A DNA stretch of 10,383 nucleotides, taken from NCBI GenBank assembly GCA_028869615.1, contig JAGWRQ010000062.1, forward strand, positions 1 to 10,383. The letters are read 5' to 3'. Below are positions 2-10,383 of this stretch, piece by piece. The first letter of the stretch is position 1, and every line of letters starts with the position of its first letter. The position numbers and the translations under genes were made by a program. The stretch comes from Candidatus Methylomirabilota bacterium (lineage in GTDB: Bacteria > Methylomirabilota > Methylomirabilia > Methylomirabilales > Methylomirabilaceae). The notes under the pieces are model-generated. The model searched no databases. It saw only the letters and a program-made list of their open reading frames with translations, and was not told where the DNA came from.

Positions 2-55
2 TTCGAGGAGGAGCAGTGGCGCGTCGATCTCGTCGGTCTGCAGCGATGCTATTAG
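2..55 (+). CDS. possible C-terminal end of an upstream gene (partial, unidentified)
   Basis: Reading from base 2 on the + strand gives an open frame FEEEQWRVDLVGLQRCY that ends at TAG 53-55. The composition is protein-like, but 17 residues are too few to assign a family and the start lies outside the window. The + orientation agrees with the two cassette genes that follow and is opposite to everything right of 880. It could also be chance, since frame 1 is also open here. No convincing terminator is seen between this stop and the repeat at 97. Confidence 0.35.
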   Translation, partial: FEEEQWRVDLVGLQRCY

Positions 56-96
56 CTAAAAAGACGGTCGGCAATCTGGTCCGGTCAAGGGGCTTA

Positions 97-127
97 ATTT
101 TGATTATACAACGTCGTATACGACATA
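97..127 (+). repeat. 31-bp direct repeat, left copy, containing a dif-like XerC arm and central hexamer
   Basis: This matches 701-731 at 28 of 31 positions; the differences are at repeat positions 7, 13 and 25. It contains ACGTCGTATAC (111-121), 10/11 identical to the XerC-like arm of the right copy, and an identical central hexamer GACATA (122-127). Similarity stops immediately after 127: the following 11 bases (128-138, AATGGTCTGCT) match the XerD-like arm of the right site at only 5 of 11 positions. The core GTCGTATACGAC (113-124) is also a perfect 12-bp palindrome, so an operator role is an alternative. Being a repeat is directly seen; being a Xer half-site is inference. Confidence 0.85.
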
Positions 128-142
128 AATGGTCTGCTTGGC

Positions 143-150
143 AAGGAGGG
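143..150 (+). promoter_or_regulatory. strong Shine-Dalgarno for the first cassette gene
   Basis: AAGGAGGG lies 4 bases before ATG 155, a near-full anti-SD complement. It supports translation of the 81-aa frame from this ATG and makes it unlikely to be a chance ORF. It lies inside the candidate element, just beyond the degenerate XerD arm. Confidence 0.7.
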
Positions 151-154
151 AGAG

Positions 155-400
155 ATGATTCGAGTACGGTTAAGCGATCCCAATTGCCCAAGTGATGCCC
201 CTTTCAGGTTCAGGATAGGCGACAGGGTTGCCTGGAAGAAAGGGGATGATGCGCCGGGTTTGGACAGTGTAGGTGTAGTTGTCGAGGGGGTTTGGGAGCA
301 TTGGGTAGCTGGTGGATCCGGCGTGGTTTGGTATCGTGTGCAGCGGGAGAAGGACAAACTTTACTACAAGGTTCATCACTCGCGCTTGGTTGGGTTGTAA
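155..400 (+). CDS. small unknown protein, possible SH3-like beta barrel (81 aa)
   Basis: I do not recognise a family. The product is 81 residues, without a signal peptide or membrane segment. Residues 18-81 alternate hydrophobic and charged positions in a pattern typical of small all-beta barrels: an opening FRIGDRVAWKKG, a central GVVVEGVWEHWV, a strand VVWYRVQREKDKLYYKV and a closing SRLVGL. The GDRV...G.V...Y.V layout resembles SH3/KOW-type folds, which is inference from pattern only. ATG 155 has the strong Shine-Dalgarno at 143-150. The stop (398-400) lies 22 bases before the next cassette gene, so the two are probably co-transcribed. It is G-rich on the + strand and opposite in orientation to all genes right of 880. 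A remote fold search would settle the fold. Confidence 0.65.
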   Translation: MIRVRLSDPNCPSDAPFRFRIGDRVAWKKGDDAPGLDSVGVVVEGVWEHWVAGGSGVVWYRVQREKDKLYYKVHHSRLVGL

Positions 401-422
401 TGAAAATTGGCCGAGGGTAGAC

Positions 423-689
423 ATGAGGAAGTGGGAGTACAGCGTACAGTATCTGTGGCCCGCTGATCTCAAGGCTGCGGTGCGACAGCAGGCTATAAGC
501 CAAGCGGCTCTGTTGAAGATAAGCAATCCAGAAGTACCTGATCCGAAGGAAGTTGTGGAAGTCATGGCGAATATCGAGAGTGTTCAGAATAATATGAATG
601 AGATGGGCAAGCAGGGTTGGGAAGCATTTAGTGTGATTCAACAAAAGAGTGGTTGGTGGGTGGTTTATAGACGACCTTTGCTTTCTTAA
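423..689 (+). CDS. DUF4177-like small protein (88 aa)
   Basis: The chosen start is ATG 423, because GAGGG at 413-417 sits 5 bases upstream and the frame further upstream overlaps the first cassette gene in an unlikely composition. The 88-residue product begins MRKWEYSVQYL and, after a helical middle with NISNPE-type polar sequence and MANIESVQNNM, closes with MNEMGKQGWEAFSVIQQKSGWWVVYRRP. An N-terminal KWEY strand, a later N.(L/M)G..GWE.. turn and a terminal aromatic strand ending in RP are the hallmarks of the DUF4177 family, small beta-rich proteins of unknown function. The middle insertion (residues 16-53) is longer than in the shortest members. The family match is from pattern recognition. 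It is the second gene of the two-gene cassette; no toxin or antitoxin signature is seen. Confidence 0.65.
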   Translation: MRKWEYSVQYLWPADLKAAVRQQAISQAALLKISNPEVPDPKEVVEVMANIESVQNNMNEMGKQGWEAFSVIQQKSGWWVVYRRPLLS

Positions 690-700
690 GATCGATCTTG

Positions 701-731
701 ATTTTGGTTATATAACGTCGTATAAGACATA
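701..731 (+). repeat. 31-bp direct repeat, right copy
   Basis: Second copy of the repeat at 97-127 (28/31 identical), starting 12 bases after the stop of the DUF4177-like gene. It comprises 14 bases of A/T-rich flank (including the palindrome GTTATATAAC at 707-716), the XerC-like arm and the central hexamer, and it ends where the XerD-like arm of the dif candidate begins. The shared 14-bp flank outside the Xer arm suggests the two junctions descend from one ancestral site rather than converging by chance. Confidence 0.85.
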
Positions 732-742
732 TTATGTCAACT
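715..742 (+). other. candidate chromosomal dif site (XerC/XerD recombination)
   Basis: The 28 bases have the 11-6-11 layout of dif. The left arm ACGTCGTATAA (715-725) and right arm TTATGTCAACT (732-742) flank a 6-bp centre (726-731). From memory, the right arm matches the XerD arm of B. subtilis dif at 10/11 positions and that of E. coli dif at 9/11. The left arm matches the B. subtilis arm at 8/11 and shares the E. coli ending ATAA. Context agrees: all confident genes to the right run leftward toward it, the cassette genes run rightward, and the G/C strand bias changes sign across it. The site lies in an A/T-rich gap. A whole-chromosome skew plot would confirm that this is the terminus. Confidence 0.72.
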
Positions 743-879: not shown

Positions 880-1365
880 TCACATCTTGTATTTCCCGAA
901 ATCCTCCGGCTTCAGATTCTCAAGCCACTCCTTCCATTTATCGGTTTCTTCCTTCTCTTCTGAGACCTCAATGTTCTTGGCTTGCGCCACGACGTTCTCG
1001 GCAACAAAGATCGGAGCATTTGTGCGGAGAGCCAATGCAATGGCATCGCTTGGTCGAGAGTCGATCTTGACGACGCTGCCGTTATGATTCAGATCGATGG
1101 TCGCGTAGAACGTATTCTCCTTAAGGTCATTAACAGTAATCTGCTGAACGGTGATGCCCAAGCCGTCCAGGATATTTTTGAGAAGGTCGTGAGTCATGGG
1201 TCGAGGCGTCGATACCTTTTCGAGTTCCAATGCAATAGCATTCGCTTCAAAGATCCCAACCCATATCGGCAGAGCGCGACGCTCATCCGGATCCTTTAAG
1301 ATCACAATCGGCATATTCGTGATCGGATCCAGCGCAATGCCGCGCACCGTCATCTTGATGAACAT
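880..1365 (-). CDS. bifunctional nuclease family protein (DUF151/BFN domain, 161 aa)
   Basis: The protein begins [23 protein letters not shown], followed by [20 protein letters not shown] (residues 26-50), a THDLL..IL..LG segment (58-71) and [19 protein letters not shown] (102-120). This order is characteristic of the DUF151/BFN family, small cytosolic beta-alpha proteins; plant members have been reported with DNase/RNase activity, but bacterial roles are poorly defined. The tail (about 131-161) is highly charged ([12 protein letters not shown]...). ATG 1365 is preceded by AAGGAG (1377-1372), which overlaps the stop codon of the HIT gene. The gap is only 10 bases, so the two are very likely translated from one transcript. 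It is the last gene before the dif candidate. Family call confident, biochemical role not. Confidence 0.9.
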
Positions 1366-1375
1366 CGTGCTCTCC

Positions 1376-1864
1376 TTACGACACAGCCTTATAGAAAACA
1401 GGAGCGAGTTTCCGATACGTTACAGCCAACTCTTCAGGGATAACCTTCGTGTGTGCGACGATCGGCATAAAATTCGTATCGCCGTTCCAACGCGGAACGA
1501 TATGTAAGTGAAGATGATGTTCGACGCCGGCTCCCGCAGCCTTACCCTGATTCATACCCATATTGAATCCATCGGGATTCATAGTCTCACTCAGAAGCGA
1601 TGTGCTTCTCGCAGCCTCTTGGACGAGCTCAATCCGCTCTTCCGCAGACAGTGCTTGCAGATTGCCGAGATGCCGATATGGAGCGATCATTATATGTCCG
1701 GGATTGTATGGATAGAGATTCATCTGGATAAAGACGAACTTCCCACGATACAGGATGAGATGCTTTTCGTCTTGCTGGGTTGCGGGCGCCTCACAAAATA
1801 TACAGCCGGAAGGCCATGCGTTCTCCACATACACCATTCTCCACGGTGCCCATAGCGTTTCCAT
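1376..1864 (-). CDS. HIT-family hydrolase (Ap4A phosphorylase-like, 162 aa)
   Basis: The protein begins [14 protein letters not shown] and has a C-I-F-C pair at 21-24, the N-terminal pattern of bacterial HIT proteins related to Ap4A phosphorylase. The catalytic histidine triad [10 protein letters not shown] starts at residue 117 (H117, H119, H121), with [12 protein letters not shown] just before it. Such enzymes cleave or phosphorolyse nucleotides linked through phosphate, such as diadenosine polyphosphates; the exact substrate cannot be told from sequence. ATG 1864 is chosen over a TTG one codon upstream because METLWAPWR is the conserved family start. There is no Shine-Dalgarno, and promoter-like A/T-rich hexamers end only 10-16 bases upstream, so the message may be leaderless or nearly so. 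The stop overlaps the SD of the DUF151 gene. Confidence 0.92.
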
Positions 1865-1874
1865 CAAGCAGCAA

Positions 1875-1908
1875 TCTATACCTATAAGAGTCTTTGATCC
1901 TCCACCAA
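1875..1908 (-). promoter_or_regulatory. possible promoter of the HIT-DUF151 pair
   Basis: On the - strand TTGGTG (1908-1903) and TATAGG (1886-1881) are 16 bases apart, and a second -10-like TATAGA follows at 1880-1875. Either -10 places the transcription start within about 10 bases of the HIT start codon. The -35 match is modest (4/6), so this is tentative. Confidence 0.38.
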
Positions 1909-1977
1909 CGTCAGCGCAACTTGCTAAGCATTCAACCTACTTAAATCTAACATCCAATCCTCGTCGTCGCAAGATGT

Positions 1978-1988
1978 TTTTACGACGT
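1978..1988 (-). other. third XerC-arm-like sequence in the 317-bp gap
   Basis: The - strand reads ACGTCGTAAAA, 10/11 identical to the left arm of the dif candidate, preceded by GATTGC (compare GATTATAC in the left repeat) and followed by ACAT. No XerD-like arm follows. A one-mismatch 11-mer is expected by chance with appreciable probability in 10 kb on two strands, so this is only a hint. It lies in opposite orientation to the two sites at 111 and 715. Otherwise, 1868-2033 shows only the HIT promoter region. Confidence 0.25.
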
Positions 1989-2033
1989 TGCAATCATGAT
2001 AATGAGCGGATTTCGTGAAATCGAGTTCGTCGG

Positions 2034-2204
2034 CTAAAAAAGGGGCGCAGCCATACGGGTCTCATCGAGGCCAATCCAGGCAGTATCAAACTCTTCGTGT
2101 GGCTTCAGAATCTCGGGAACGTCATGGTGGGGCTCACGCAGCGAGCGCCCTTTACGAACGCGGTAGCCGCCTTCAAGATCAGGACTAGCTGTCGATGAGT
2201 TGCC
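2034..2204 (-). pseudogene. orphan 56-codon C-terminal fragment downstream of ihfB, unidentified
   Basis: Past the ihfB stop, the - strand in another frame is open from 2204 to TAG 2036-2034. It reads protein-like: PDLEGGYRVRKGRSLREPHH, then DVPEILKPHEEF, then DTAWIGLDETRMAAPLF. The composition (acidic, basic and aromatic residues in balanced spacing, GC-rich third positions) is like that of the neighbouring real genes. There is no ATG, GTG or TTG in a useful place and no ribosome-binding site; a stop in this frame sits at 2207-2205 inside ihfB. So it appears to be the tail of a gene that lost its front, or a coincidentally coding-like intergenic stretch. I do not recognise the family. Confidence 0.35.
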
Positions 2205-2466
2205 TCAACTCTTTGCCCGGCTTGAAGAAAGGAATGCGCTTTGAGGGAACGTGGACCGGTGCGCCGCTTTGCGGATTACGACCCTGCCGTGCGCGCCGTT
2301 GCCTCGTACGGAAGCTCCCGAAGCCGCGGAGTTCCACCTTTCCGTCATTTTTTGAAGCAAGCGCCTTCGAGATGCTGTCGAAGATAGTATCAACGACAAC
2401 TTCGGTATCCTTCTTGGTTAAGCACATCTGGGCGGCAACCAATTCTACTAAGTCGGCCTTTGTCAT
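2185..2466 (-). CDS. ihfB: integration host factor, beta-type subunit (HU/IHF family, 93 aa)
   Basis: This is a nucleoid DNA-bending protein of the HU/IHF family. ATG 2466 gives MTKADLVELV and a 93-residue protein, the usual IHF-beta length. The strong GGAGGAG at 2482-2476 lies 9 bases ahead of it, whereas an in-frame ATG at 2499 has no SD and adds a non-family N-terminus. KVELRGFGSF (43-52) is the family signature. The arm carries GRNPQSG (62-68), with P65 at the position of the DNA-intercalating proline. VPSKRIPFFKPGKELRQ (73-89) is the IHF-beta-like C-terminal block, favouring IHF over HU. IHF bends DNA for transcription, replication and site-specific recombination. It is the last gene of the rpsA-sppA-ihfB run (59-bp gap to sppA); cmk-rpsA-ihfB linkage is a familiar bacterial arrangement. 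The alpha partner is not in the window. Confidence 0.92.
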   Translation of the reverse strand: MTKADLVELVAAQMCLTKKDTEVVVDTIFDSISKALASKNDGKVELRGFGSFRTRQRRARQGRNPQSGAPVHVPSKRIPFFKPGKELRQLIDS

Positions 2467-2525
2467 GACTGGCAACTCCTCCACATTCAGGAACTTCATC
2501 AGCCAAATATGTTGTGACGATCCAA

Positions 2526-3398
2526 TTACCAGAGAAGATAGTTTACAGAGAGTGTCGAGGGTGGATAGATCGGCAAAGCGATATCAAACAGACTCAAGCC
2601 GCTACGTAGTAGATCAATAAGGAAAAGCCTCCGTTTTCGCTCTTGAATGACGGTCGGTTTCCCTGGAATCCCAGCCATGGCCCCTGCCCGTTCAATCGCA
2701 TCCTGAAGGTTGCCAAGTTGGTCTACCAATCCAAACGATTGCGCCTCTCGCCCACTGAAGATCCGCCCGTCTGCCATAGCCTCGACCTTTTTACGATCTA
2801 TTTGCCTGCCCTTGGCCACCACATCTATGAACTGGTTATGGACATCATCCAGCATGCCTTGAAGGATTTGGCGCTCGGCATCGGTCATCTCTCGGGTGGG
2901 AGAAGCAAGATCCTTGTGCGCCCCGCTCTTCACGACCACGGACTTCACGCCGATTTTTTGCATGAGACCGGAGATGTTGGGAATCTGAAGCAGAACTCCT
3001 ATACTGCCGGTGATAGAGCCGGGATTAGCCACAATCAGATCCGTCGCACTCGCGATATAGTATCCGCCTGACGCCGCTACGCTCCCCATGGAGGCAACGA
3101 CGGGTTTCTTATCGGTCTTACGAGTCTTGAGAATCTCTTCATAGATTTCCTGAGAGGGTGCCACCCCGCCCCCCGGACTGTTAATCCTGAGGACAATAGC
3201 CTTGACAGATGGATTCGTTCGGTGTTTGTCGAGCTGTTCGATCACCTCTTTTGAATCCAGGATAACCCCTTCGACTGCGATCAGCGCGACCTTGCTTCCG
3301 CCAAATCGCTCCCATCTACCAAGCGAGAAGGCCACGCCGAACAGGAGCAGCAGGCTCACGAACACCGCAAGGCTGACAGCCAGCCAAGTTCGTTTCAT
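2526..3398 (-). CDS. sppA: signal peptide peptidase SppA, short 36-kDa type (290 aa)
   Basis: This membrane-anchored serine protease degrades cleaved signal peptides. An uncleaved-type N-terminal membrane anchor (about residues 5-25, LAVSLAVFVSLLLLFGVAF after MKRTW) is followed by the ClpP/crotonase-fold core: VALIAVEGVI (37-46), INSPGGGV (72-79), GSVAASGGYYIA (105-116) and GSITGSIGV (127-135). The predicted nucleophile is S110 in AASGGYY and the predicted general base is K162 in SGAHKD; the 52-residue spacing equals that of the B. subtilis SppA Ser-Lys dyad. The length fits the short single-domain class, not the 67-kDa E. coli form. The C-terminus (256-290) is hydrophobic/amphipathic (LFLIDLLRSGLSLF). 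It starts 14 bases after the rpsA stop with a weak GAGG-type SD. Confidence 0.95.
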   Translation of the reverse strand: MKRTWLAVSLAVFVSLLLLFGVAFSLGRWERFGGSKVALIAVEGVILDSKEVIEQLDKHRTNPSVKAIVLRINSPGGGVAPSQEIYEEILKTRKTDKKPVVASMGSVAASGGYYIASATDLIVANPGSITGSIGVLLQIPNISGLMQKIGVKSVVVKSGAHKDLASPTREMTDAERQILQGMLDDVHNQFIDVVAKGRQIDRKKVEAMADGRIFSGREAQSFGLVDQLGNLQDAIERAGAMAGIPGKPTVIQERKRRLFLIDLLRSGLSLFDIALPIYPPSTLSVNYLLW

Positions 3399-3412
3399 CG
3401 CCCAGCTCGCCT

Positions 3413-5155
3413 CTACGAAACCTCGATTCCCTCTTCCTGGCGATCTGATGAGTGCTGATCGGGGGAAGCCTGATCGGGTGTCCGGCTCGAGGCGTCCTGG
3501 CTATCCAGGTAGGCGCGAAGGCTCAGCCCGAGCTTGCGCTCGTTGGCATCCAACTTGATGATCTTGAGAGTAAGCTCTTGGTCAATGGAGACCACATCCT
3601 CGGGCTTCGCTACCCGTTCATGACCCAGTTCAGAGATATGGAGGAGCCCTTCTACCCCGTCTTCCAATTCGACGAACGCCCCGAAATCAGTCAGACGAAC
3701 CACCTTGGCTTTCACGTCCATGCCGACGTGGTACTTATCAAGGACGGTAGATTGCCAGGGGTCGGGCTGGCTCTGCTTGAGGCCGAGGGAAATTCGACGA
3801 TTCGTTTTATCGGTGTGCAGGACAACCGCCTCAACTTTGTCCCCTCGCTTCAAGACCTCAGAAGGATGGCGGATTCGCTTGGTCCAAGACATATCGGACA
3901 CGTGAATCAGTCCGTCTATCCCTTCGTTCAACTCAACGAACGCGCCAAAGTCGGTAAGGTTCCTGACGACCCCTTCGACACGCGTCCCCACGGGGTAGCT
4001 TTCCTCGATCGACAACCATGGGTTTGGTTCGATCTGGCGAAGCCCCAGAGAGATCCGCTTATTAAGCTTATCCACATCCAAGACCACAACCTCTATAGAG
4101 TCCCCGACCGAGACGACCTTGGATGGGTGTTTAACTCGCTGAGTCCAGGACATCTCAGAGATATGAACCAGCCCCTCGATCCCCTCGGCGAGCTCAACGA
4201 AGGCGCCATAGTCGGTCAAACTGATGACCTTACCGCGAACACGGGAGCCGACAGGAAACCGCTGATCGACATCCTCCCACGGGTCCTTCGAGCGCTGCTT
4301 ATGGCCAAGTGATACCCGTTCCGCCGCCCGGTCGAACTTGAGAACCACGACCTCGATCTCGTCGCCGACGGTGAAGAGTTCAGAGGGATGACCGACGCGG
4401 CCCCAGGACATATCGGTGATATGAAGCAACCCGTCCAATCCGCCGAGATCGATGAACGCGCCGTACTCAGTAATATTCTTGACCTTGCCCCGTATAATTT
4501 TCCCCTCTTCCAACGATTGCAAGGTCCTTTCCTTGAGGGTTCGCCTCTCTTCTTCAAGCAGCTCTCGCCTGGACAGGACGATGTTGCCTCGGCGCTGGTT
4601 TAACTTTATCACTTTCATCGGAAAGCTCTTACCGATCAGCTTGTCGAGATCACGGACCGGTCGCAGATCAACCTGAGAACCCGGTAAAAAGGCCCTGACA
4701 CCAACATCCACCGTCAGGCCCCCTTTGGTGCGGCCCAGGATCATTCCTGTGATTACTTCACCCTTCTCATAGGCTCGCCGGATATCGTCCCAGATCTTGG
4801 TCTTCTCCGCCTTTTCTCTCGAGAGGACAATGAGGCCGTCGCTATCCTCTTTCTGCTCCAAGTAGACATCGACAGTATCGCCAACCTTGACCGTGACTTC
4901 TCCGGAGGGCGTCTGGAACTCCTTGATGGGTATGGTCCCTTCAGACTTATAGCCGATGTCGATCAGGACCATATCGTTCCTGATTTCCAGCACACTCCCC
5001 CTAACGATCTCCCCCTCAGTGATTTCCCGCAGGCTCTGGGCGTACAGCTCAACCAATTCCTGTTCCTGGGACTGCTCCTGAGCGGGGATCTTACGATCCA
5101 GCGTGTCCGTCGATGTGTTAACAGCCTCTTCTAACTTGTCCGTCTCAGACATCAT
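3413..5155 (-). CDS. rpsA: 30S ribosomal protein S1 (580 aa, six S1 domains)
   Basis: S1 binds mRNA and helps deliver it to the 30S subunit. Six OB-fold S1 repeats are visible at about 46-114, 132-196, 217-285, 300-373, 387-460 and 475-547. Repeats 3-6 carry the typical G.V...T(D/E)(Y/F)GAF(V/I)(D/E)L...GL.H(I/V)(S/T)(D/E)(M/L) pattern. Repeats 1 and 2 are divergent, as expected for the ribosome-binding domains. The total length and six repeats fit full-length Gram-negative-type S1, not the four-domain Firmicute form. After repeat 6 there is a polar S/D/Q-rich tail (about 551-580). ATG 5155 follows AGGAGG (5172-5167) by 11 bases; an adjacent ATG at 5152 would also work. A perfect 6-bp inverted repeat lies between the plsC end and this SD and could affect expression. 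It sits between plsC and sppA in the operon. Confidence 0.97.
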   Translation of the reverse strand: MMSETDKLEEAVNTSTDTLDRKIPAQEQSQEQELVELYAQSLREITEGEIVRGSVLEIRNDMVLIDIGYKSEGTIPIKEFQTPSGEVTVKVGDTVDVYLEQKEDSDGLIVLSREKAEKTKIWDDIRRAYEKGEVITGMILGRTKGGLTVDVGVRAFLPGSQVDLRPVRDLDKLIGKSFPMKVIKLNQRRGNIVLSRRELLEEERRTLKERTLQSLEEGKIIRGKVKNITEYGAFIDLGGLDGLLHITDMSWGRVGHPSELFTVGDEIEVVVLKFDRAAERVSLGHKQRSKDPWEDVDQRFPVGSRVRGKVISLTDYGAFVELAEGIEGLVHISEMSWTQRVKHPSKVVSVGDSIEVVVLDVDKLNKRISLGLRQIEPNPWLSIEESYPVGTRVEGVVRNLTDFGAFVELNEGIDGLIHVSDMSWTKRIRHPSEVLKRGDKVEAVVLHTDKTNRRISLGLKQSQPDPWQSTVLDKYHVGMDVKAKVVRLTDFGAFVELEDGVEGLLHISELGHERVAKPEDVVSIDQELTLKIIKLDANERKLGLSLRAYLDSQDASSRTPDQASPDQHSSDRQEEGIEVS

Positions 5156-5183
5156 ACCCTTTAGTTCCTCCTTTTGATAAGAT

Positions 5184-5204
5184 ACCCACCCTCTTCATGT
5201 GGGT
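5184..5204 (-). promoter_or_regulatory. hairpin-forming inverted repeat ahead of rpsA
   Basis: ACCCAC and GTGGGT form a perfect 6-bp inverted repeat with a 9-base loop, overlapping the plsC stop (5195-5197) and ending 12 bases before the rpsA AGGAGG. Known rpsA genes in other bacteria are translationally autoregulated through leader structure, so a role here is possible. It could equally be a weak attenuator, but no T run follows. The structure is seen; the function is inferred. Confidence 0.4.
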
Positions 5205-5941
5205 TCATTGATGCCTCGCTTCTTTATCGACATAGCCTCTCCTGTTGCGTAAGTCCGATTGACTCCTGATCGAGAACCGCTCGCTGACCAGGTCTTAAGA
5301 GCGGCGATTTTCTCCATAATTATTTGGCTGAATATCACGGCTTGACCCTGTGCCTTCTCCACCTCTTCCTCGGCAAACCGACATGGCGCCCCGAATTGCA
5401 CCGTGATGCGATTCGGTCTGGGGAGCCATGCGCCTCTGGGGAATACCTTCTCTGTGCCCCGATGAAACACTGGAATCACTGGCGCGCCCGTTCGCGCAGC
5501 AATCAGTCCAATCCCCGGCTTGGCGGGCCGCAAGTCGATTCCATCTCCTCGCGTCCCTTCCGGAAAGATTGCAACGATCTCCCCTGCTTTCAGAAGCGAG
5601 TTTGCCCGCTTCAACGCCTGTCGGTCGATTCGGTCCCGATTGACCGGAAAAGCGCCGAACTTCCGAATCAGCCAACCAAATAACCGGAAACGGAACAGCT
5701 CCTGCTTGGCCATGAAACGGACTGGACGACGCATCACGATCCCGATGATGATTGGATCGATATAGCTCACGTGATTCGCCGCCAGGATCGCCGGTCCCGT
5801 ACGGGGAATAAACTCCTGTCCCTCGACATGAAGACGGAACGCGATCTTTGCGATGCCAAGGCATAAAAGACGAGCCGTACTGAAGGCGCAGCGAGTAACC
5901 GCCTTTTTGAGAGCAAGATCCCGAAAAAACCCAATTCTCAT
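5195..5941 (-). CDS. plsC: 1-acyl-sn-glycerol-3-phosphate acyltransferase (PlsC family, 248 aa)
   Basis: The family acylates lysophosphatidic acid to phosphatidic acid at the inner membrane. Acyltransferase motif I is NHVSYID (catalytic H57 and D62, HX4D). Motif II-like GAFPVNRD is at 96-103, motif III FPEGTR at 126-131, and APVIPV (153-158) is motif IV-like. A hydrophobic N-terminal segment (about 18-36) suggests membrane association. The roughly 40-residue C-terminal tail is basic and poorly conserved. The start is ATG 5941 with AGAGGG (5960-5955) 13 bases upstream, rather far. It lies 45 bases after cmk and 39 before rpsA; a plsC between cmk and rpsA is a recurring bacterial arrangement. 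The exact acyl-donor and acceptor specificity within the PlsC superfamily is not determined by sequence. Confidence 0.93.
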   Translation of the reverse strand: MRIGFFRDLALKKAVTRCAFSTARLLCLGIAKIAFRLHVEGQEFIPRTGPAILAANHVSYIDPIIIGIVMRRPVRFMAKQELFRFRLFGWLIRKFGAFPVNRDRIDRQALKRANSLLKAGEIVAIFPEGTRGDGIDLRPAKPGIGLIAARTGAPVIPVFHRGTEKVFPRGAWLPRPNRITVQFGAPCRFAEEEVEKAQGQAVIFSQIIMEKIAALKTWSASGSRSGVNRTYATGEAMSIKKRGINEPT

Positions 5942-5986
5942 AATATCGAACTATCCCTCTGAAACGCAAGAAAAAATTCAGAGCAC

Positions 5987-6688
5987 TTACGTGGAGCCTT
6001 TTGAGGCGGCCGTCTTCCGTCGAATCTCCTCTTCCATCGCATCGACCACCTGAGACACAGGTAAATCGCTTGTATCAATCGTAACGGCCTCGTCAGCTTT
6101 TCGTAGCGGCGAGGCGCGTCTGCCCATATCTCTTGCATCCCGCAACGTAATTTCTTCGGCAAGTTCGTCCATCTTGCGGGTTGCACCGGCAGCCTGCGTC
6201 TCGAGATAGCGACGTTTCGTCCGTACCTCTACACGAGCCGTGAGATAGAATTTCAGATCGGCGTCTGGAAAGACCACCGTGCCAATATCCCGCCCGTCCA
6301 TGACGACCCCTCCCTGCGCCGCCATGTGTCGCTGGTGCGTCACCATCACAGAACGAACGCTCGGGTGGGTAGAGATTTTCGAAGTTGCCTGTTCTACTTC
6401 GCGTTCCCTGATCTGTCGGCTGACCTCCTGTCCATCGACAAGAATCAGTTCCCGATCACCGGCAGGCTCGATGACAATAGAGGTTTCATCGGCCAGTCGC
6501 CGCAGGCTTTGTTCATCGTCCAGGTCAAGACCTGCCCGCAGCGCCTTCCACGACAGCGCGCGATACATGGCCCCGCTGTCGATATACCGATATCCCAGCC
6601 GCTTGGCAAGCAGGCGAGCCGCCGTGCTTTTTCCTGCTCCTACGGGCCCGTCGATTGCAATAATAAGGCCGTCCGTCGTTCTACTCAA
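5987..6688 (-). CDS. cmk: cytidylate kinase (233 aa)
   Basis: The enzyme phosphorylates CMP/dCMP to the diphosphate with ATP. The P-loop GPVGAGKST (14-22) follows the beta strand LIIAIDG. DSGAMYRA (37-44) is the family's nucleotide-binding segment. DGRDIGTVVFPDADLKFYLTA (131-151) is the strongly conserved CMP-kinase block, and RDARDMGRRASPL (183-195) is the lid/catalytic arginine region. The length is typical. The start is UUG at 6688: GGAGGG (6705-6700) lies 11 bases upstream, an in-frame TAG lies shortly upstream, and no ATG occurs before the conserved strand. It is the first gene of the cmk-plsC-rpsA-sppA-ihfB run. A 187-base gap (6689-6875) separates it from aroA, in which I see no gene and no convincing promoter, only a small inverted repeat. 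Confidence 0.96.
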   Translation of the reverse strand: MSRTTDGLIIAIDGPVGAGKSTAARLLAKRLGYRYIDSGAMYRALSWKALRAGLDLDDEQSLRRLADETSIVIEPAGDRELILVDGQEVSRQIREREVEQATSKISTHPSVRSVMVTHQRHMAAQGGVVMDGRDIGTVVFPDADLKFYLTARVEVRTKRRYLETQAAGATRKMDELAEEITLRDARDMGRRASPLRKADEAVTIDTSDLPVSQVVDAMEEEIRRKTAASKGST

Positions 6689-6806
6689 CTGGTCGTTATC
6701 CCTCCAACGCTATGCTGCCTGTGCGCCCAACATCTGCACGATTCCAGTGACCTGCGTCATACCCAGAACCGAGCAGATCAAGGACGCAGGGAGAAGCCGA
6801 CCGGAG

Positions 6807-6821
6807 CGTACGGGTTGTACG
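6807..6821 (-). repeat. small inverted repeat in the aroA-cmk gap
   Basis: CGTAC and GTACG flank a 5-base loop in the 187-base gap. The stem is short, with no T run, so it is not called a terminator. The rest of the gap (6689-6875) shows no supported feature beyond the cmk SD. Confidence 0.3.
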
Positions 6822-6875
6822 TGCGGATCAGCGACGACCCGAGGACGCCGATATGCGACGGTTATCGATATGGCG

Positions 6876-8204
6876 TTAGACCTCCAAGGGAACGGCTGCC
6901 CCTGGCAGGATGGTATCCAACCGGGTCCAGAAATCCGGGAATGAGCTGCCGACACAGGATGGATCGGAGATGGTGGTGCTCCCTCTTGCCGCCAAGCCCG
7001 CCACGGCCAACGCCATCGCTATCCGATGATCTCCCCAACTGTTGCAGTGACATCCGGATAGTGAAGCGCTTCCCTGAATCACCATACCATCATGGCGTTG
7101 TTCAATCTGTACGCCAAACCGACGAAGCTCTTGGTCAAGAGCGGCAAGCCGGTTCACCTCCTTGACCCGGAGTTCGGCCGCATCCCGTATGGTGGTGGCG
7201 CCCGTAGCGAGCGCCGCAGCCACCGCAAACACCGGGATCTCGTCGAGCATCCGGGGGATCAGGGCCCCGACTACCTCGGTCCCGTGCAGCGCTTGGCTCC
7301 TGACATGGAGGTCGGCAACCGGCTCACCGGAGATGATACGCCTTCGGCTGACCTCAATCACCGCACCCATCGACTGCAGCGCATCTAACAGGCCGGTTCG
7401 AGTCGGATTGATGCCCACCCCTCGCAAAGTCAGCTCTGACCCAGGGATCACCAGGGCCGCGACGAGGAAGAAGGCGGCCGCTGAAAAATCGCCCGGAATG
7501 GCGATCTGGAACGCCGGGATCGTCTTGACGCCACTGACTCGGAGACGTAAACCGTTGCGGTGGATCGGTATACCGATCGCTTCGAACATCCGCTCCGTAT
7601 GATCACGCGAGAGGGATGGCTCGGTGACCGTCGTCTCTCCTTCGGCAAAAAGACCGGCCAACAGGATCGCGGACTTAACCTGGGCGCTGGCGATCGGGCT
7701 GACATAGTCGATCGCCCTCAGATGCGTGCCCTTGATGGCGAGGGGTGGGAAGTTGCCGCCGTCACGACCGAGAATGGTGGCCCCCATCGATCTCAGCGGC
7801 ATGGCAACCCTGGCCATCGGCCGTGCGCGCAGATACCGGTCGCCCGTCAGCACGGAAAAGAACGGCTGCGCCGCCAGTACCCCCGCCAGGAGCCTCATCG
7901 TCGTTCCGGAATTCCCAAGATCTAGAACCTCCTCCGGCTCCTTCAATCCGCCCAGCCCGCATCCGCGAATCCGCAGTCGATCGTTGCCCAACTCTTCAAC
8001 CGTGATGCCCATGGTTCCAAACGCTTTGGCGGTGTCGCGACAGTCATGGCTTCGAAGCGCGCCGGTAATCTCCGTGACCCCATCAGCCAGTGACCCCAGG
8101 ATGATCGCGCGATGAGTGATCGACTTATCGCCTGGAAGAGTCAGTTCACCCTTCAACGGACCGATGGGATCGACCCGCATTCGTTCTACACTGTTCTTGA
8201 GCAT
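6876..8204 (-). CDS. aroA: 3-phosphoshikimate 1-carboxyvinyltransferase (EPSP synthase), class II-type motifs (442 aa)
   Basis: The enzyme transfers enolpyruvyl from PEP to shikimate-3-phosphate in aromatic amino acid synthesis. LPGDKSITHRA (23-33), LGNSGTTMRLLAG (96-108), SAQVK (173-177), SRDHTE (199-204), INPTRTG (265-271), RMLDEIPVFAVAA (318-330), RVKEVNRL (346-353) and WGDHRIAMALAVAGL (390-404) occur in order. GDKS, SAQ.K, R.H.E and N.TR are the four motifs used to define class II enzymes, the group that includes naturally glyphosate-tolerant members. The usual RVKESDRL reads RVKEVNRL here. ATG 8204 overlaps the end of miaA by 19 bases and lacks a clear SD. ATG 8180 (5 bases after the miaA stop) would give MRVDPIGPLKGEL, closer to typical starts, and is a real alternative. 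Coupling to miaA translation is likely. Confidence 0.95.
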   Translation of the reverse strand: MLKNSVERMRVDPIGPLKGELTLPGDKSITHRAIILGSLADGVTEITGALRSHDCRDTAKAFGTMGITVEELGNDRLRIRGCGLGGLKEPEEVLDLGNSGTTMRLLAGVLAAQPFFSVLTGDRYLRARPMARVAMPLRSMGATILGRDGGNFPPLAIKGTHLRAIDYVSPIASAQVKSAILLAGLFAEGETTVTEPSLSRDHTERMFEAIGIPIHRNGLRLRVSGVKTIPAFQIAIPGDFSAAAFFLVAALVIPGSELTLRGVGINPTRTGLLDALQSMGAVIEVSRRRIISGEPVADLHVRSQALHGTEVVGALIPRMLDEIPVFAVAAALATGATTIRDAAELRVKEVNRLAALDQELRRFGVQIEQRHDGMVIQGSASLSGCHCNSWGDHRIAMALAVAGLAARGSTTISDPSCVGSSFPDFWTRLDTILPGAAVPLEV

Positions 8205-9139
8205 GTCGTCTCAATTCGTTCGGAGAGCAAGCGGAGCATACGTTCGCTGACCGCCGATCCCTCCACCGGCAGCCACTCGATCTCATCTTGGTGACGGAAC
8301 CAGGTGAGCTGACGTTTGGCATACCGCCGTGTATCGCGCTTGAACGAAGCGACCGCGTTCTCAAGACTGATCTGCCCTTTCAGGTGCGCGATTATATGAC
8401 GGTACCCGATGGCTCGTAGAGGCCTTAGTGTTTCGCGGTAGCCCCGATCAAGCAGGCTCCGGACCTCACGCAGCAATCCTTGCGCCATCATCGTCTCTAC
8501 TCTCGCATCAATCCGTTGGTACAGTTCCTGTCGATTCCGCTCAAGGCCGAATCTCAACACTGGCCCGGAGACCGGTTTATAGTTGCGGCGCCCCTCTACC
8601 CTGAGGGTCGAGATGGGACGACCACTCACGGTTGCAACTTCAAGCGCCCGCACGATTCGAAAGAGGTCATTGGGATGGATCGCCACAGCCGCCTCGGGAT
8701 CGACGACCTCGAGCCGCCGGTGTAGAGTCGCGGAGCCCACTTGCGCCGCCTCCTGATATAGTGTCTCTCTGAGTGGGGTCATCTCCCCCGGTCCGTCAAA
8801 CAGGCCGTAGAAGAGCGCGCGGACATAGAGGCCGGTTCCGCCTACTACGATCGGAAGACGTCCACGAGCGCGGATGTCGACGATGGCGGCAGAAGCCAGC
8901 CTCACATAATCGGCTGCCGTGAAGGGCTGGTCAGGCTCGACGAGGTCCAGAAGATGATGAGGAATACGCCGTCGCTCGTCAACGCTCGGCTTCGCAGTCC
9001 CGATGTCGAGATCGCGGTAGACCTGCATCGAGTCGGCTGCAACGATTTCGCCCCCCACCCTCTCCGCCAGGGCGAGAGCCAACGACGACTTCCCGGACGC
9101 AGTCGGACCCACCAGCACAATAAGCGGCACAGGGCTCAA
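8186..9139 (-). CDS. miaA: tRNA dimethylallyltransferase (317 aa)
   Basis: MiaA adds a dimethylallyl group to N6 of A37 in tRNAs reading U-starting codons. From the chosen UUG start the protein begins MSPVPLIVLV and the P-loop GPTASGKS is at 11-18. ADSMQVYRDLDIGTAKP (35-51), PHHLLD (60-65), GGTGLY (100-105), NDLFRIVRALEV and the LRPLRAIGYR block follow in family order. The start rests on AAGGAGGT (9156-9149), a full SD complement 9 bases ahead of UUG 9139. Upstream in-frame starts (ATG 9163, GTG 9202) extend into sequence holding the SD and a promoter-like TATAAT and give non-family residues. The length then matches typical MiaA. The C-terminus overlaps aroA. No hfq neighbour, the common partner in gamma-proteobacteria, is present in the window. 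Confidence 0.95.
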   Translation of the reverse strand: MSPVPLIVLVGPTASGKSSLALALAERVGGEIVAADSMQVYRDLDIGTAKPSVDERRRIPHHLLDLVEPDQPFTAADYVRLASAAIVDIRARGRLPIVVGGTGLYVRALFYGLFDGPGEMTPLRETLYQEAAQVGSATLHRRLEVVDPEAAVAIHPNDLFRIVRALEVATVSGRPISTLRVEGRRNYKPVSGPVLRFGLERNRQELYQRIDARVETMMAQGLLREVRSLLDRGYRETLRPLRAIGYRHIIAHLKGQISLENAVASFKRDTRRYAKRQLTWFRHQDEIEWLPVEGSAVSERMLRLLSERIETTCSRTV

Positions 9140-9148
9140 GAGATTACT

Positions 9149-9156
9149 ACCTCCTT
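9149..9156 (-). promoter_or_regulatory. full Shine-Dalgarno deciding a UUG start for miaA
   Basis: The - strand AAGGAGGT complements the anti-SD over 8 bases and lies 9 bases from TTG 9139. It is inside the coding frame if ATG 9163 were used, which argues strongly for the UUG. Confidence 0.75.
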
Positions 9157-9181
9157 CAGACATATGATCTACCTGTAAGTA

Positions 9182-9187
9182 ATTATA
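9182..9187 (-). promoter_or_regulatory. -10 hexamer of a possible miaA promoter
   Basis: The - strand has a perfect TATAAT within GTATATAATTAC. A start 7 or so bases downstream would give a leader of about 35 bases carrying the miaA SD. No good -35 hexamer is seen 16-18 bases upstream, so a promoter is likely but not certain. Confidence 0.45.
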
Positions 9188-9214
9188 TACCACACCCAGC
9201 ACCCTCTTGTATCT

Positions 9215-9243
9215 GAAGCTGATAGCTGAGCGCTGAACGCTTC
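9215..9243 (-). repeat. GCTGA-iterated inverted repeat at the end of metF
   Basis: GAAGC (9215-9219) and GCTTC (9239-9243) bracket a stretch in which the pentamer GCTGA occurs three times (9218, 9225, 9232) on the + strand. It overlaps the metF stop (9244-9242). It can fold as a 5-bp stem with a long loop and has no following T run on the - strand, so it looks more like a small interspersed intergenic repeat than a terminator. Whether copies exist elsewhere cannot be seen here. Confidence 0.4.
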
Positions 9244-10114
9244 ACCTTGGCAGCTTCAATGCCTGTAGGATCCGGAAGGTCGCTTCAGCTTTATTGAGGA
9301 GATAAAAGTGTAGGCCAGGGATACCTGCGTCAAGCAGTTCGCGGCATTGTCCGATGGCGTATCGTACCCCTACGTCCACTTGCCCATCAGGGTCATCCCG
9401 ATACGCCTCCAGCTCAGCGAGGAACGATGCCGGTATCTTGGCCCCGCACATGGATGTAATACGCTGAACCTGGCCCAAGTTGACGACCGGCAGGATACCT
9501 GGAATCAGAGGCGCTGCAATTCCGGCCTCTTCGTAACGCCTGCGAAAGTCAAAGAAATCGCGATTGTCATAAAAGAGCTGCGTGATCACTGCATCGGCGC
9601 CCGCATTCACCTTCCGCTTCAAGTTCGCTAAATCGACTGCAGGGCTTGGCGCTTCCTGATGCGTTTCGGGATAGCCGGCGACGGCAATGCTAAAGCGGGG
9701 GAACTCCTGCCGAATCATCGCCACCAATTCATTGGCATACGCAAACCCGCCCTCTGGTTTTTTGAACTCTGCCTGCCCCTTTGGAGGATCGCCGCGCAAG
9801 GCGACGATATTCTCAATGCCCAGATCGGCGGCCTCCTTCAACCACTGCCGAATCTCCTCCACGGTCGATCCCACGCAGGTCCGGTGAGCTGCTGTCGTCA
9901 CGCCAAACGTCTTACTGATCTTTGCAGTCAGCTCTAGGGTTTTTTCCTGAATCGATCCTGCGGCGCCATAGGTGCATGACACGAAGGAAGGGCGATACAC
10001 CATCAGGGCTTCGAGGGCAGCGAACAACTGGGGATTCCCGGCCTCAGACTTGGGGGGGAAGATCTCGAAGGAAAGTCCAAACTTGCCTTTGCCGTACACG
10101 TCGACGATCTTCAT
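9242..10114 (-). CDS. metF: 5,10-methylenetetrahydrofolate reductase (290 aa)
   Basis: The flavoenzyme reduces methylene-THF to methyl-THF for methionine synthesis (or runs in C1 pathways). FGLSFEIFPPKS (12-23) carries the catalytic glutamate E17. PSFVSCTYGAAGS (42-54), AAHRTC (75-80) and VALRGDPPKG (104-113, with D109 at the flavin-contacting aspartate position) are followed by SIAVAGYPETHQEA, DLANLKRKVNAGADAVITQLFYD, PGILPV and PGLHFYLLNKAEAT, collinear with E. coli MetF at similar length. ATG 10114 is chosen because MKIVDVYGKGKFGLSFE has a normal short lead-in; an in-frame GTG at 10141 would add nine Trp/Arg-rich residues. Neither has a strong SD. It is upstream of miaA with a 102-bp gap containing a separate -10-like element, so it may be its own transcription unit. 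Confidence 0.96.
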   Translation of the reverse strand: MKIVDVYGKGKFGLSFEIFPPKSEAGNPQLFAALEALMVYRPSFVSCTYGAAGSIQEKTLELTAKISKTFGVTTAAHRTCVGSTVEEIRQWLKEAADLGIENIVALRGDPPKGQAEFKKPEGGFAYANELVAMIRQEFPRFSIAVAGYPETHQEAPSPAVDLANLKRKVNAGADAVITQLFYDNRDFFDFRRRYEEAGIAAPLIPGILPVVNLGQVQRITSMCGAKIPASFLAELEAYRDDPDGQVDVGVRYAIGQCRELLDAGIPGLHFYLLNKAEATFRILQALKLPR

Positions 10115-10236
10115 CCGTCTCAGCCACCATTCCTGCGCCACTGTCTGCGCTCAAGCGACCACGCGTGAAGAAACGCAACGGCAGCCAACACCATGCGGGT
10201 GGGCCAATGATTGTCAGAGGGCGCCAAATACAAAGA

Positions 10237-10266
10237 CCCTCGCCTCCGTCCGTCCATCTGCGAGGG
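10237..10266 (-). terminator. probable Rho-independent-like terminator upstream of metF
   Basis: On the - strand CCCTCGC (10266-10260 complement) and GCGAGGG form a perfect 7-bp G/C-rich stem with a 16-base loop, followed by the T-rich TCTTTGTATTT. It begins one base after the TAG of the partial frame at 10268. The large loop and the interrupted T tract make it moderate rather than strong. Between it and metF (10115-10236) I see no clear promoter. Confidence 0.5.
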
Positions 10267-10267
10267 C

Positions 10268-10383
10268 CTATCGTATCCTATCGGTTGTGCGAATAAGGCG
10301 TTGACCTGAGCGTCGTGACGTCTCCCTTGACTCCATTGAGGCTCTGGTTAATGTGTCCCTGGTTTCTTGATCCAGGTCATCAT
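10268..10383 (-). CDS. possible C-terminal end of an upstream gene (partial, unidentified)
   Basis: Entering from the right edge, one - strand frame is open for 37 codons to TAG 10270-10268. It reads DDLDQETRDTLTRASMESRE followed by a T/S/R-rich tail ending TTDRIR. It is polar and low in hydrophobics, so it could be a flexible tail or chance. The support is positional: the stop is directly followed by the terminator-like hairpin at 10266-10237. No family is recognised. Confidence 0.35.
   Translation of the reverse strand, partial: DDLDQETRDTLTRASMESRETSRRSGQRLIRTTDRIR

Follow-up and report, generated by a model that had tools for sequence, protein, structure and literature searches.

A 604-bp two-gene insert at the dif site of a Methylomirabilota bacterium, a candidate very small element integrated by host Xer recombination

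Two short genes lying between direct repeats, the right copy of which runs into a dif-like site, raise the question of whether a piece of DNA this small entered the chromosome through the Xer system of its host. The window, by which we mean the whole stretch of DNA analysed, is 10,383 nucleotides long and constitutes all of contig C257 of a Candidatus Methylomirabilota assembly (G000; 278 contigs, 2.06 Mb). A preliminary description of the window had proposed a Xer-integrated element of about 604 bp, residing at the terminus or forming the last unit of a tandem array that extends to the left. The features on which the present account draws are collected in Table 1.

Table 1. Features of the dif locus, in positions of the window
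Feature	Position	Strand	Basis
3'-terminal codons, with stop, of the gene adjoining the insert on the left	2..55	+	5' part at the C223 end adjoining the TPR gene
Left copy of U (18 bp)	93..110	+	15/18 identical to 697-714
Left half-site: XerC arm ACGTCGTATAC, core GACATA, divergent XerD arm AATGGTCTGCT	111..138	+	anatomy as in G008 and G002
604-bp unit, circle expected from core exchange	128..731	+	spacing of 604; excision predicted
ORF1, 81 aa, unnamed small-protein family	155..400	+	relatives found; no Pfam/NCBIfam family
ORF2, 88 aa, C-terminal part weakly DUF4177-like	423..689	+	E 0.025, below Pfam cut-off
Right copy of U	697..714	+	repeat comparison
Chromosomal dif, ACGTCGTATAA-GACATA-TTATGTCAACT, 11-6-11	715..742	+	genus-conserved site
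Bifunctional nuclease-domain gene, conserved right neighbour of dif	880..1365	-	PF02577, 148.3 bits; synteny

A direct repeat ending at the dif of the genus

The direct repeat extends over positions 93-127 and 697-731, with 31 of 35 positions identical and a spacing of 604 bp; the 31-bp copies originally described (97-127 and 701-731) differ at 3 positions, in agreement with the 28/31 claimed for them. Identity of this degree is far beyond chance: the repeat has 4 mismatches, whereas the runner-up on the + strand of the window has 16, and none of 200 mononucleotide-shuffled windows contained a match with fewer than 12. Compared segment by segment, the copies share 15/18 positions of an upstream extension, here termed U, 10/11 of the XerC arm, 6/6 of the core and 5/11 of the XerD arm, while the 20 bases before and after the repeat are identical at 5/20 and 4/20, respectively. 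The drop in identity from core to XerD arm puts the end of the repeat at the boundary between these two segments, where the preliminary description had also placed it. The same description had called the left XerD arm degenerate; its identity to the dif arm is 5/11. Both sites lie on the + strand with the same arm order, that is, in direct orientation. The XerC arm and core, at up to 2 mismatches, match G000 at two places, which are the two sites themselves, this pattern being less specific than the full 28-mer (1 match against 0 in the mirror control). GC content is 0.503 in the insert and 0.558 over positions 880-10383.

The right copy does run into an 11-6-11 site, and this site is the conserved dif of the genus. 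At up to 3 mismatches, the full 28-mer has a single match in 10 of 60 genomes, all within the 15 genomes of the genus, and the mirror-read control has 0 matches in 60/60. Positions 715-742 are the only such match in the 2.06 Mb of G000 (mirror control 0). It had been suggested that a chromosomal dif identified elsewhere, by GC skew and a better 28-bp match, would speak against the proposal; a second full dif was not found in G000. In the one-contig genome G005, GC skew is +0.072 (5.5 kb) and -0.076 (14.5 kb) on the two sides of dif. On the low-coordinate side, six of nine sampled 15-kb stretches have positive skew, a seventh has 0.000 and the remaining two have weakly negative values, the stretch nearest dif (-0.011) being one of these two; on the other side, skew is negative in 10 of 11 sampled 15-kb stretches. 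Residence at the terminus, as first proposed, agrees with the identity of the site as the genus dif and with the sign change in GC skew there in this congener. In G011 a more diverged site, AGGTCATATAA-GGAATA-TTATGTAAACT, adjoins the TPR gene of that genome (see below). G002 shows a half-site and no match to the full dif because its contig ends within the element there, and the dif search gave no match in G001, G006 and G010.

The 6-bp core varies within the genus, being GAGAGA in 7 genomes, GACATA in G000, G002 and G012, GAAATA in G009 and GGAATA in G011. The three GACATA genomes lie apart on the tree and do not form one group, a distribution which would fit core changes at dif. About 15 bp to the right of dif are also conserved in most of the other genomes. 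A scan of public records with the XerC arm and the GACATA core returned 17 stretches, of which L065 and L075 are genus loci and the remaining 15 carry titles naming other phyla. Matches of the XerC arm with a loose core (1 mismatch) at G005:783821, G008:C10, G002:C104 and G014:C68 fall at unrelated places and were counted as chance because the mirror control gave 3; the locus around the G014 match (L037) contains no dif-like site.

Empty sites, larger elements and the 18-bp extension

A gene encoding a TPR protein, present in 13 of the 15 genus genomes, ends ∼40-325 bp left of dif in eight of them (G003, G004, G005, G007, G009, G012, G013, G014), and in these same eight the dif site is empty. 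On the right, the nuclease-domain gene is syntenic in seven congeners (G004, G005, G007, G008, G012, G013, G014). In G003 (L027) and G009 (L032) the left side is syntenic and the nuclease-gene side gave no alignment among the rows listed for four queries. The G000 TPR gene is located on contig C223 and not on the window contig. The right end of C223 (L059:12847-13261) encodes the first part of the gene that ends at the start of the window, the join lacking ∼90 bp, or ∼29 codons, as estimated by eye against L016. Since the two contig ends share one gene, the order is TPR gene, left-neighbour gene, left site, ORF1, ORF2, dif, nuclease gene. This left-neighbour gene is sporadic, occurring in 5 of the 15 genus genomes and at up to 3 places in one of them. 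None of the 10 other genomes read has it at this position, so more than one kind of change has occurred at the locus. Short blastn comparison of the DNA downstream of the TPR gene in G000 and G004 gave a weak reverse-strand match alone, so that the resident left flank of G000 could not be traced.

Further to the left, between a phosphoribosyltransferase-domain gene and the TPR gene, ∼6 kb of extra DNA is present in G009 (L032) and ∼3.5 kb in G012 (L033), with none in G005, and G000 has a tRNA-like stretch at this place. The tRNA-like stretch points to a possible hot spot for integration beside a tRNA gene in the vicinity of dif.

Comparison of the dif locus across relatives, proposed in the preliminary description as a check, yielded larger elements at dif in two genomes (G008, G002) besides the empty sites in 8 of 15. 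Next to its TPR gene, G008 has ACGTCGTATAA-GAGAGA-AATCGTCAACT, separated by 6,393 bp from the full dif (L031:9111-15531). The DNA between contains, besides long ORFs, genes for a G2P-type Rep (PF23343, 96.2 bits) and a Zot/pI-type ATPase (PF05707, 93 bits), and appears to be a filamentous-phage-like prophage of 6.4 kb. The corresponding half-site of G002, ACGTCGTATAA-GACATA-AGTCGTAACCT, also stands after the TPR gene and precedes a Rep gene of PF23343 (37 bits; L036:5058-8358). In the left half-sites of both genomes, the XerC arm and core are kept and the XerD arm is divergent, as in the window. Matches to this Rep family occur in 2 of the 15 genus genomes, G008 and G002, and matches to Zot in G008, plus one at the cut-off elsewhere in G004; neither a Rep nor a Zot/pI-type ATPase was found in the insert or in the remainder of G000. 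The insert itself is not a filamentous phage (inovirus), since it contains neither Rep nor the assembly ATPase. It has the locus and the half-site class in common with the G008 element but differs in length, in the Rep and Zot/pI-type genes of the latter, and in that no shared gene was seen.

The likeness of class rests on the left XerD arm, which is identical to the G008 arm at 8/11 positions, to the G002 arm at 6/11 and to dif at 5/11. A level of 8/11 with the G008 arm is reached by 0.11% of 295,004 11-mers from eight genus sequences and, among 11-mers at least 5/11 like dif, by 1.0%, a comparison which rests on 11 bases. This provides modest evidence that the window and G008 arms may represent a common att class.

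The occurrence of U ahead of both sites is what a single integration fails to account for. Scanning at up to 5 mismatches, U was found before dif in none of 11 other loci. As a remnant of the resident left flank, its best match is 10/18, a level reached in ∼11% of random sets, and this origin was not supported; nor was a hairpin-forming single-strand att of the CTXphi type, the ssDNA folding of both site regions being not unusual (z 0.57 and 0.23). Being shared by both sites, U hints at units with a common (right) end. The tandem array proposed as an alternative, extending to the left, was not found: the flank is the 3' end of an ordinary-looking gene, and no further XerC half-site was detected from the TPR gene to the contig end (best 7 mismatches in 17 on the + strand and 6 on the - strand), a span of which ∼90 bp are unsequenced. 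From U and the phage-like arm, we lean slightly towards the unit being the last of a larger element or array rather than a lone traveller.

The two genes of the insert

Two + strand genes are present between the repeats (155-400 and 423-689), as had been described, and no recombinase is among them, in line with the recombinase-less content first claimed; nor was a replication or transfer gene recognised in the insert. ORF1 is preceded by a strong Shine-Dalgarno sequence, AAGGAGG, at 143-149. A single-sequence query detected one relative of ORF1 and a three-sequence profile 20, the family being present in 3 of 95 genomes of the phylum (G000, G006, G085). Among 60 genomes, ORF1 occurs in one other and ORF2 in no other, and an occurrence of the pair without flanking dif-like repeats, which had been named as evidence against the proposal, was not encountered, the pair not being found elsewhere. 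The G006 relative (51%) lies away from any recognisable Xer site. In G006 and G085 the ORF1-family gene is followed by a HicB-like gene, with HicA next in G006 (L041:5253-6084, L116:314-797), which suggests that the family may be linked to toxin-antitoxin loci. On the two contigs concerned, the genus dif was not found, the best places having 9 mismatches in 22 arm positions; G085 belongs to another family, in which dif may differ.

A search of 5.8 billion proteins, at the sensitivity used, recovered no protein related to ORF2 other than ORF2 itself. Against PHROG, neither ORF gave a convincing family (best E 0.041), and the predicted structures, of low confidence (pLDDT 68.6 for ORF1 and 61.8 for ORF2), matched nothing at E 0.001. 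Searches of viral contigs with both ORFs, the ORF1 family profile and dif-like patterns added nothing, nor did a plasmid search with one ORF1-family member. At a guess, ORF1 and ORF2 are a small accessory or addiction-type pair.

Origin of the insert and its relation to known elements

We consider it probable, at roughly 0.7, that the 604 bp were inserted at the native dif by host XerC and XerD, in the way that an integrative mobile element exploiting Xer (IMEX) would be. Orthologues of XerC and XerD are encoded in G000, on contigs C126 and C86, scoring 352 bits against a cut-off of 335.15 for XerC and 367.7 against 329.6 for XerD. As in an IMEX, the insert lies at the chromosomal dif between direct sites, the site is empty in relatives, and the insert has no recombinase of its own in a host possessing both Xer proteins. 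The genus dif, the empty sites, the half-site anatomy in relatives and the host recombinases combined give the locus the appearance of an IMEX-type Xer insertion; in this respect the proposed Xer-integrated element of about 604 bp holds, while no array was found in the DNA read to its left.

The att of the incoming DNA would have resembled dif in its XerC arm and core and diverged from it in its XerD arm. Exchange within the 6-bp core would place the divergent arm on the left site and, by the same event, rebuild a full dif on the right with the chromosomal XerD arm, so that the chromosome would keep one good dif, still able to serve dimer resolution. From the altered left site, excision is expected to be rare. 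We infer both the role of Xer in the insertion and the weakness of the left site.

TLCphi and the gonococcal island, as presented in passages of PMC5357621, are IMEX that occupy dif, lack a recombinase of their own and have an att with a divergent XerD arm; core exchange by XerCD with an att of this kind produces the anatomy seen in the window. The insert agrees with them in its position at dif, its lack of a recombinase, the conserved XerC arm and core, the divergent XerD arm and the direct sites. In contrast, the IMEX named in the passages concerned are far larger (EludIMEX-1, 29.1 kb, and the gonococcal island, 57 kb, PMC5357621; VGJphi, 7.5 kb, PMC4246890), whereas the insert comprises 604 bp, has no replication or transfer gene and carries the extra 18-bp repeat. 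LME-1 of Legionella also integrates at dif, and, according to the portion of PMC9765430 concerned, a reporter built after this element is excised less when one arm is altered. Integration at dif and one altered flanking site are thus common to LME-1 and the insert, but LME-1 is a different element and depends on a single-recombinase XerL system.

The reading that competes most closely is that a larger IMEX, for example a filamentous prophage, entered dif by Xer and then lost nearly all of its DNA, the 604 bp never having moved as a unit. It shares the Xer entry step with the IMEX reading and therefore competes over size at entry alone. The other two occupied dif loci, in G008 and G002, hold larger elements with Rep genes, the left arm resembles the prophage arm at 8/11 positions, and the insert is without a replication gene; conversely, two tightly packed ORFs with no recognisable phage debris, no convincing PHROG family and no Rep or Zot match in G000 speak against it. 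Taken by itself we give this history somewhat less than an even chance, and place it roughly on a par with independent movement of the unit. Slippage or illegitimate recombination could also have copied U, the XerC arm and the core, the genes being acquired otherwise, and the copy does reach 18 bp past the XerC arm, which simple Xer exchange does not need. However, the repeat stops at the core/XerD boundary, and the half-site structure recurs, without U, at the corresponding position of G008 and G002, which renders an origin independent of Xer improbable.

Small Xer-bounded gene units are known as the pdif/dif modules of Acinetobacter, in which, by the passages of PMC12907356 and PMC6449649 concerned, site orientation alternates; toxin-antitoxin genes are among their cargo, and a higA-higB module of 762 bp, by the coordinates given in PMC12907356, is a precedent for a unit of such size. 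These modules are, however, bounded by inverted sites and reside in plasmids or at additional chromosomal dif sites, whereas the sites of the window are direct, leaving the C/D and D/C order unmatched, and the right one is the main dif; a module of this type is very unlikely here. We put at a similarly low level an assembly chimera or bin contamination. The assembly consists of 278 contigs with a stated contamination of 7.85%, and the contig ends 110 bp left of the site, but the right side is syntenic with 7 congeners and C223 provides the expected left anchor together with the other part of the gene cut at the window start.

The IMEX reading allows an extension, which we hold to be unlikely. 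Sub-kilobase units without recombinase or replication gene may enter the main dif via a phage-class half att and could be strung together because each would bring its own U and XerC end, a Xer-run counterpart, at the replication terminus of an uncultured phylum, to the way integrons gather cassettes. The insert is known from one genome.

Our verdict is that the insert is a very small new variant of IMEX, ordinary in its likely mechanism and unusual in size and host. No description of dif insertions in Methylomirabilota was recognised in the titles and abstract openings among the literature matches listed. A dif sequence for the genus is now well supported, and dif-targeted elements, one of them filamentous-phage-like, are now placed in this phylum. 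An unusually small insert bears the altered-arm signature that stabilises known IMEX and, if such units are self-mobile, tiny genes dependent on nothing beyond the host Xer system would have a place to accumulate at the terminus.
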